Positions 11,493 to 37,526 of a stretch of 37,526 bases of DNA are shown here, piece after piece. The stretch is from Bacteroidales bacterium (GTDB lineage Bacteria > Bacteroidota > Bacteroidia > Bacteroidales > UBA7960). The position numbers were made by a program, and so were the translations under genes. The stretch covers positions 1 to 37,526 of the forward strand of contig SKYG01000012.1 of the NCBI GenBank assembly GCA_007128045.1. Reading direction: 5' to 3'. Within the stretch, counting starts at the first letter, position 1; every line of letters begins with the position of its first letter. The notes under the pieces were generated by a model. That model had not been told where the DNA came from. It ran no database searches and worked only from the letters and a program-made list of their open reading frames with translations.

Positions 11493-11516
11493 GTTACGAG
11501 GTTACGGGGTTAAGAG
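11493..11516 (+). repeat. Octamer array GTTACGAG-GTTACGGG-GTTAAGAG
   Basis: Three 8-bp units. The 16-mer GTTACGAGGTTACGGG also occurs on the minus strand at 36776-36761. Confidence 0.7.
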
Positions 11517-11604: not shown

Positions 11605-11628
11605 GTAGGGACAGGGCTTGACCTGTCC
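11605..11628 (+). repeat. REP-like hairpin, GTAG head, stem GGACAGG/CCTGTCC, loop GCTTGA
   Basis: GTAG-GGACAGG-GCTTGA-CCTGTCC, a perfect 7-bp stem. Confidence 0.8.
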
Positions 11629-11774
11629 GACATGATATTCTGGCAGGTGATATGTATCAACAGGGCTTGACCTGTCCGACATGATATTCTGGCAGGTGAT
11701 GCGTATCATCAGGGCTTGACCTGTCCGACATGATATTCTGGCAGGTGATGTGTATTAACAGGGCTTGACCTGTC
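11612..11774 (+). repeat. 49-bp tandem repeat, about 3.3 copies, each carrying CAGGGCTTGACCTGTCC
   Basis: Units start at 11612, 11661, 11710 and 11759, at exactly 49-bp spacing; small differences in the gatatgtatcaa segment. Confidence 0.92.
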
Positions 11775-11808
11775 CTCACAGGGTTACATGTTTACTGCGC
11801 TTTCTAAA

Positions 11809-11850
11809 TTCTCAATTCTCAATTCTCAATTCTCAATTCTCAATTCTCAA
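11809..11850 (-). repeat. Heptamer array (TTCTCAA)6, i.e. (TTGAGAA)6 on the minus strand downstream of dacB
   Basis: Six exact 7-bp units. Confidence 0.95.
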
Positions 11851-18556: not shown

Positions 18557-18583
18557 TACACGGAAAACCGACATGGCATAGAA

Positions 18584-18618
18584 GGTCGAAGGTCGAAAGC
18601 CGAAAGTCGAGGGTCAAA
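18584..18618 (+). repeat. Heptamer array (GGTCGAA)n, degenerate, 5 units, downstream of the LptD-like gene
   Basis: ggtcgaa ggtcgaa agccgaa agtcgag ggtcaaa. Confidence 0.8.
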
Positions 18619-30998: not shown

Positions 30999-31010
30999 CC
31001 CGATGCTGTT

Positions 31011-31042
31011 GTTGAATTGTTGAGTTGTTGAATTGTTGAATG
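31011..31042 (+). repeat. Octamer array (GTTGAATT)4, downstream of recQ
   Basis: gttgaatt gttgagtt gttgaatt gttgaatg, beginning 13 bp after the recQ stop. Confidence 0.88.
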
Positions 31043-36687: not shown

Positions 36688-36711
36688 GGACAGGTCAAGC
36701 CCTGTCCCTAC
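36688..36711 (-). repeat. REP-like hairpin, GTAG head on minus, identical core to 11605-11628
   Basis: Minus strand GTAG-GGACAGG-GCTTGA-CCTGTCC, an exact 24-nt match to the 11605 copy in inverted orientation. Confidence 0.82.
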
Positions 36712-36760: not shown

Positions 36761-36840
36761 CCCGTAACCTCGTAACTTTTCAACACCTCAACACCTCAAC
36801 TCCTCAACACCTCAACTCCTCAACTCCTCAACTCCTCAAC
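36761..36840 (-). repeat. Octamer array (GTTGAGGA)n followed by GTTGAAAA-GTTACGAG-GTTACGGG, downstream of rtcB
   Basis: Ten 8-bp units; the first unit shares its G with the rtcB TAG stop (36842-36840, minus strand). Confidence 0.9.
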
Positions 36841-37526
36841 TATCCTTTAATAACTGCCAGCGGCTGAAGTTCTGTGAGCACCTCTACCAGGTCTTTTTGG
36901 TTGTTCATCACCTCGGAAATATCCTTGTATGCACTGGTGGCTTCTTCAAGGTCGCTTTGGTTTCTGATGGCATGAAGAACTCCTTTTTGGTCAAGCTTCC
37001 GGATCTCTTCTTTCAGGTTTAGCTTTCGGATTGCTTCTTTGCGGCCCATGATCCGGCCTGCTCCATGCGAACAGCTTTCAAAACTCTCTTTATTACCCTT
37101 CCCTTTAACGATATAACTATTGCTGCCCTGACTGCCAGGAATAATACCAATGGTCTCTTTGGATGCTTTTGTGGCCCCCTTCCTGTGAACCATGACCTCT
37201 AAACCAAAATGTTTTTCCGTGGTTGCGTAGTTGTGGGCTATATTGATCATCGGACCAGAACGAAAGCTTTTGCCGAAATGGTGTTCAAATACATTCAGTA
37301 TATTGGTCATCATCATTTTCCGGTTGGCATAGGCGAAGTCAATACAATAATTCATTTCTCTGATATACTGTTGGCCTTCATCGCTCGACAGATACAGATA
37401 CGCCAATTGAGCTGATTTTGGTACCTGACTTTTCCACTTAACGTTGAATTCTATTGCCAGGCGGTTGTAATGGTCCGCAACCTGTTTGCCGATATTTCTG
37501 CTTCCGGAGTGTACCATGATCCAGAT
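36840..37526 (-). CDS. rtcB: RNA-splicing ligase RtcB, C-terminal part; 5' end lies beyond the window
   Basis: IWIMVHSGSRNIGKQVADHYN...GIIPGSQGSNSYIVKGKGN...CSHGAGRIMGRKEA; frame still open at the window end. Confidence 0.93.
   Translation of the reverse strand: MWIMVHSGSRNIGKQVADHYNRLAIEFNVKWKSQVPKSAQLAYLYLSSDEGQQYIREMNYCIDFAYANRKMMMTNILNVFEHHFGKSFRSGPMINIAHNYATTEKHFGLEVMVHRKGATKASKETIGIIPGSQGSNSYIVKGKGNKESFESCSHGAGRIMGRKEAIRKLNLKEEIRKLDQKGVLHAIRNQSDLEEATSAYKDISEVMNNQKDLVEVLTELQPLAVIKG

Follow-up and report, generated by a model that had tools for sequence, protein, structure and literature searches.

Tandem arrays of 7- and 8-bp repeats run outward from gene edges in a Bacteroidales genome

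The window, the whole 37,526-nt stretch of DNA from a Bacteroidales bacterium that was analysed, contains four short tandem arrays, each lying downstream of a gene (Table 1). The four genes were confirmed by profile matches as rtcB (Pfam PF01139), recQ (NCBIfam), the PBP4/DacB gene dacB (TIGR00666) and an LptD-like gene (LptD_2, PF19838). A preliminary description had placed four arrays with periods of 7 or 8 beside these genes. The arrays are indeed present, within a base or two of the positions it gave, with a period of 7 at dacB and the LptD-like gene and a period of 8 at rtcB and recQ. Its observation that the rtcB array begins on the last base of the stop codon was also confirmed: the final G of the rtcB TAG is the first base of the array (minus strand GGATAG-TTGAGGAG), and the junction of stop and array reads GGATAGTTGAGGAGTTGAGG on the rtcB strand. 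At dacB, the gap between the stop codon and the array contains degenerate repeats (TTAGCGCTGAGCGCC...). A G-tract of 3 or more in every unit, as quadruplexes would need, is absent from the arrays; the longest G run is 2 at rtcB, 1 at recQ and 1 at dacB, while a single run of 3, not repeated in every unit, occurs in the LptD array.

Table 1. Repeat features of the window and their positions relative to neighbouring genes.
Feature	Position	Strand	Context
(GTTGAGGA/GTTGAGGT)7.8 array, period 8	36780..36842	-	Points away from rtcB
(GTTGAATT/GTTGAGTT)4 array, period 8, 4.1 copies	31009..31042	+	~10 bp past recQ TAA (30998)
(TTGAGAA)7 array	11802..11850	-	36 bp past dacB stop
(GGTCGAA)5 array	18581..18618	+	24 bp past LptD-like stop; family B on G-richer strand
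GTTACGAGGTTAC, short relative of array family C	36764..36776	-	Gene-distal side of rtcB array
Dispersed REP-like palindrome GACAGGTCAAGCCCTGTC	36689..36706	.	rtcB-array intergenic region; not an array component

Other repeats share these regions. The GTTACGAGGTTAC module recurs near dacB (11493-11516), and the palindrome GACAGGTCAAGCCCTGTC is also found at 11610-11627. Counting both strands, this palindrome has 100 matches in the 864-kb sample described below; many are GTAG-flanked, and they look like GTAG-tagged REPs. The intergenic region 3' of dacB additionally carries a 49-bp unit repeated 3.4 times (11611-11775, 94% match), which includes the ACAGGGCTTGACCTGTCC palindrome. A search of the window against Rfam returned no family at gathering thresholds.

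The source genome is an incomplete draft of 3.14 Mb in 389 contigs, from which 864 kb was sampled in stretches; 20 of the contigs were picked because they bear arrays. Genes were called by a simple Markov-scored ORF method, with predicted, uncurated starts, and tandem arrays were called with Tandem Repeats Finder (TRF). TRF returned 200 rows of period 7 (68) or period 8 (132), of which 187 are intergenic, compared with 3 rows for period 6 and 6 rows for period 9. The abundance of period-7 and period-8 arrays far exceeds chance. On contigs that were not array-selected, ~163 such arrays per Mb lie between genes, and the genome holds hundreds of intergenic 7- to 8-bp repeats. Because several contigs begin or end inside or near arrays (L036 4404-4440, L039 1 and 14764, L052 3, L067 1, L070 1 and L082 8), the arrays may break the assembly and hence be undercounted.

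The repeat units belong to several families. Family A has the unit GTTGANNN, and family B has the unit GACYTTYA or GACYTTY, which reads GTCTGAAR or GTCRAAR on its G-richer strand and includes the LptD array (GGTCGAA); GGTGAAT/TTGAGAA, GGTTTAA and GGTTACCN are minor families. Family A arrays peak just after stops in the sense orientation and just before starts in the antisense orientation, while their other orientations are flat. Family B mirrors this arrangement, being sense before starts and antisense after stops. Single arrays may combine unit families, all in one orientation. The TYGAR-like core that had been proposed for the four arrays is therefore an approximation only, since the families differ. 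Core positions (GTTGA) are less variable than unit tails, beyond what array selection or uniform mutation would produce, and this low variation could reflect selection on the unit.

Each array was oriented by its G>C strand before distances from its edges to genes were scored. Of 137 arrays, 106 have the 5' edge of this strand nearer to a gene and 31 have the 3' edge nearer (p = 8.5e-11), with median edge-to-gene distances of 12 bp and 127 bp, respectively. Of the 113 arrays that have 60 bp or more of free space, 66 place the 5' edge and 3 the 3' edge no more than 15 bp from a gene, where a uniform placement predicts 10.6. The boundary nearest the 5' edge is a stop in 54 arrays and a start in 52, the start arrays being antisense. 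The G-richer strand usually begins within ~15 bp of a coding boundary and runs outward from it, at starts and stops alike. As a predictor of orientation, G>C (106:31) performed best, followed by purine content (81:48) and T>A (67:66). Removal of the array-selected contigs left a polarity of 65:16 (p = 3.6e-8). A tally by the TTGA strand in tandem gene pairs gave no sense bias (37:35) and was superseded by the G>C orientation; it was flat because it pooled families that differ in which strand carries TTGA.

The polarity is almost absent from non-array segments. Random non-array 40-mers gave 370:309, with 77 and 71 lying within 15 bp of a gene by their 5' and 3' edges, and repeats of other periods gave 16:11. 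Just after stops, the G/C skew of the non-array background is -0.06 compared with +0.38 for the arrays; since the two are opposite, the polarity there is not inherited from background composition. Before starts, the background skew has the same direction as that of the arrays and is weaker (-0.15 to -0.22), and the start-side half of the polarity may owe something to selection against G-rich leaders as well.

The preliminary description had noted that the arrays share an orientation bias across differing units, all following a stop codon in the sense orientation. The shared bias is genuine, holds across the genome and must have a common cause. The sense placement after a stop holds for all four arrays in the window; it fails genome-wide, where 54 stop-adjacent arrays are matched by 52 start-adjacent arrays in antisense. 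The bias is confined neither to stop codons nor to the sense orientation, as mirrored arrays at starts are as frequent as those at stops; the tally found arrays upstream of genes at equal frequency, in mirror orientation, an outcome that the preliminary description had named as counting against its idea. Because antisense arrays before starts occur at an equal rate, the proposal that the arrays are an mRNA 3'-end determinant is unsupported, and the arrays are without terminator anatomy. Hairpin terminators were considered and rejected for the window: folding is weak for the rtcB, recQ and dacB arrays (-4.1, -0.9 and -1.8 kcal/mol) and reaches -8.5 kcal/mol (z -1.6) for the LptD array, with no U run after any of the four.

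Outward polarity at both starts and stops means that two arrays in one region should face each other. In regions with exactly two arrays, convergent pairs number 11 here and 14 in other genomes, while divergent pairs number 0 and 1 (p = 8e-7). In 7 of the 11 convergent pairs here, each of the two arrays is no more than 16 bp away from the gene it adjoins. Similarly, where abutting arrays switch strand, the switch is from G to C in 6 cases and from C to G in 0. Together, the convergent pairs and the strand switches indicate that each gene edge tends to own an outward array.

The same polarity was found in other genomes. The replication set consisted of 115 loci fetched by their GTTGANTT pattern, and thus non-random, with a cruder gene call; it gave a polarity of 112:31 (p = 6e-12), with medians of 19 and 119 bp. 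By source, the counts are 20:0 for a Saprospiraceae genome, 8:1 for a Cytophagales genome, 76:24 for other Bacteroidota and 8:6 for non-Bacteroidota, so the replication is driven by Bacteroidota. Units without TTGA lean the same way (39:20). Two relatives, G020 (5:1) and G038 (2:1), offered too few usable arrays in the sampled stretches. Named genomes with GTTGANTT arrays are mostly Bacteroidota (Saprospiraceae, Bacteroidales, Cytophagales and others), and FtsH of the genome studied here matches a Chitinophagaceae locus at 56%; both point to a Bacteroidota host. One of the named genomes is Tannerella forsythia ATCC 43037, a cultured member of the Bacteroidota (L148, L187), and the pattern thus extends beyond uncultured genomes. 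Array abundance across relatives ranges from 0 to hundreds. None of the recQ 3' flanks that were readable in family relatives showed a GTTGA array, in a partial check of 24 loci for a number of which another ORF was picked.

At start codons, family B (GACYTTYA) arrays run into a leader, A(A/T)TTnTAAACAnATG, and 24 of the 26 copies of this leader in the 864-kb sample have an array. Other genera within the family have the leader too (14 copies in G054, 5 in G008 and 0 in most genomes), and in several places there it joins other array units (GACATTTC; AAACCCTT). Genes downstream of the leader in those genera gave no protein matches to the genes downstream of it here. A regulon downstream of the leader arrays was rejected, as the genes are, by eye, of many kinds. 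The leader GACAAATTATAAACACATG abuts the start codons of unrelated genes (L033, L040, L041, L049, L058, L070, L079 and others; G054 and G008). Four of 27 leader copies, each joined to an array, open just 9 to 30 codons (L036 3666, L039 8444, L042 570 and L088 9078); these may be decayed or misassembled genes, or leader insertions with no gene. The conserved GACYTTYA leader appears to be functional or copied.

Of the ideas in the preliminary description, the one that still fits the data best is that repeats are generated by a process directed at the ends of genes. We infer, tentatively, that the arrays may well be products of directional repeat growth halted at coding sequence. Units would be added or copied with strand polarity. 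Growth could proceed toward the gene, with the C-richer strand extended at its 3' end, or outward from an end at the gene edge, with the G-richer strand extended at its 3' end in a telomere-like manner. Such growth would be tolerated as far as the stop codon or the region of translation initiation, and sometimes inside them, with purifying selection on coding sequence bringing it to a halt. An array that entered a stop codon would supply its own TGA, TAG or TAA (GTTGA, GTCTGA, GGTGA) as the new stop. Some arrays, chiefly GACYTTYA arrays with the leader at start codons, may later have gained a role in translation initiation. Of the stop-adjacent arrays, 18 have a 5' edge at or over the stop codon, and several genes have array-derived TGA stops (aggagtTGA-GGAG, aaggtcTGA-AAG and acacggTGA-AAAG). 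These array-supplied stops fit growth into gene ends, permitted because the unit closes the frame. Stop supply is not the whole story, however, because most arrays follow a native stop and the start-side mirrors need another reason.

In this genome, the arrays decay away from the gene, with a terminal-unit value of 0.956 at the proximal end and 0.902 at the distal end (p = 0.004). This gradient is absent in the arrays of other genomes, and reading the growth direction from decay gradients was rejected because the gradient did not replicate. An improbable version of the process, in our view, is one in which an activity with a polarity like that of telomere addition, present in several bacterial lineages, starts at DNA ends located at gene edges and adds G-rich 7- to 8-mers in the outward direction, with facing arrays being healed, rejoined breaks.

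The strongest rival, although an unlikely one, is that the arrays are RNA-level elements under selection, with C-rich, G-poor arrays ahead of start codons keeping the initiation region open or binding a translation factor and G-rich arrays downstream of stops acting on 3' ends. Selection of each array type at its own mRNA position would explain the polarity, and the leader suits such a role, being tied to GACYTTYA arrays in 24 of 26 cases and standing before unrelated genes in other genera. Unit cores more conserved than tails point the same way, as does the translational regulation proposed for similarly placed TAACTGA repeats (PMC4679880). On its own, this explanation fails to account for the equal rates at which GTTGANNN arrays occur in antisense at starts and in sense at stops, or for the same polarity in units of different sequence; moreover, the downstream genes have no common function and some array-plus-leader copies are without a gene. 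The leader is the part of the pattern least explained by the growth model.

It is quite improbable that the polarity stems from stop-codon safety or ORF bookkeeping, whereby sense arrays create a stop and abut it and stop-free antisense arrays are counted inside the gene. Stops do occur in every frame on the G-richer strand of most units, 66 of 137 arrays combine a closed G strand with an open C strand, and several of the 18 arrays at or over a stop provide its TGA. Against this, most stop-adjacent arrays begin a few bases past a native stop, and the mirror-image placement at starts is left unexplained. In other genomes, arrays that are stop-free on the G strand lean the same way (8:3, a small count), and the published Xanthomonas and Nostoc units, stop-free on both strands by inspection, share the polarity (PMC4692102).

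We give little credence to a mobile composite of arrays, leaders and palindromes that a transposase, for instance a RAYT, would have placed in intergenic regions. The leader and array do precede non-orthologous genes across genera, REP-like palindromes are abundant, and there are two Y1_Tnp (PF01797) genes in the genome, one of them with in-frame stops. GTAG-tagged REP palindromes are dispersed, intergenic and of high copy number (PMC3733652); the GTAG-flanked palindromes here share intergenic regions with the arrays, but the arrays themselves are non-palindromic, and a comparison of the array units with the REP palindrome/RAYT system found them not to be palindromic. The presumed composite would also have no fixed boundaries, order or length, some array regions are without palindromes, and the same leader is joined to different array units between genomes. 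Plain slippage microsatellites, with the orientation being a chance property of four arrays, are very improbable: the units vary from locus to locus and long-period simple repeats can expand in some bacteria, but the polarity is present here (p = 8.5e-11) and in other genomes (p = 6e-12) and is missing from non-array segments and other repeat periods.

The gene-edge polarity is not new: it was already published in 2015 for Xanthomonas and Nostoc, and the rule here is that rule. Rehm et al. 2015 reported that GGGAATC repeats in two Xanthomonas and GGGGA(C/T)T repeats in Nostoc are closer to their 5' neighbouring ORF, whichever the direction of that ORF, so that repeats after a stop occupy the coding strand and those before a start the non-coding strand, mostly <50 bp from the ORF (PMC4692102). 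Like those repeats, the arrays here are abundant, intergenic and of short, heterogeneous units with a conserved core, linked to neither a functional class nor a mobile element (PMC4692102), and the 5' edge of their G-rich strand is near an ORF of any direction (106:31 here and 112:31 in the replication set). They differ from those repeats in having a period of mainly 8 and several unit families in one genome, and three of the four window arrays lack G-tracts suited to quadruplexes. The accessible text of Rehm et al. 2015 makes no mention of the convergent pairing or the start-codon leader seen here (PMC4692102). Neither tandem GGGAATC nor tandem GGGGA(C/T)T was found in the 864-kb sample.

TAACTGA direct repeats were described by MacGregor 2015 in marine Beggiatoaceae, Cyanobacteria and five Bacteroidetes (PMC4679880). 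Those heptamer arrays likewise stand directly before starts with no common gene function; whereas they mainly face starts in the best-studied host, the arrays here abut stops equally (PMC4679880). Sense arrays directly upstream of starts occur here in the GACYTTYA family and not among GTTGANNN arrays, and tandem TAACTGA is missing from the 864-kb sample (0 occurrences of TAACTGATAACTGA). The STRR heptanucleotide repeats of cyanobacteria, reportedly described by Mazel and colleagues in 1990, are genome-wide tandem heptamers as well, with other units and hosts than those here. Our literature search found no paper on Bacteroidota octamers.

These results correct a natural misreading of the arrays as a 3'-UTR signal and connect the octamers of Bacteroidota to the heptamers of Xanthomonas and Nostoc. 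The count of convergent versus divergent pairs is a sharp test that can be applied to any genome. The GACYTTYA leader, should it prove functional, would be a translation-initiation module not previously described in Bacteroidota. That the bias follows the edge of the coding sequence, and neither the direction of transcription nor the sequence of the unit, restricts how bacterial 7- and 8-bp repeats could have arisen and points to strand-polar growth, or to constraint at both ends of genes.
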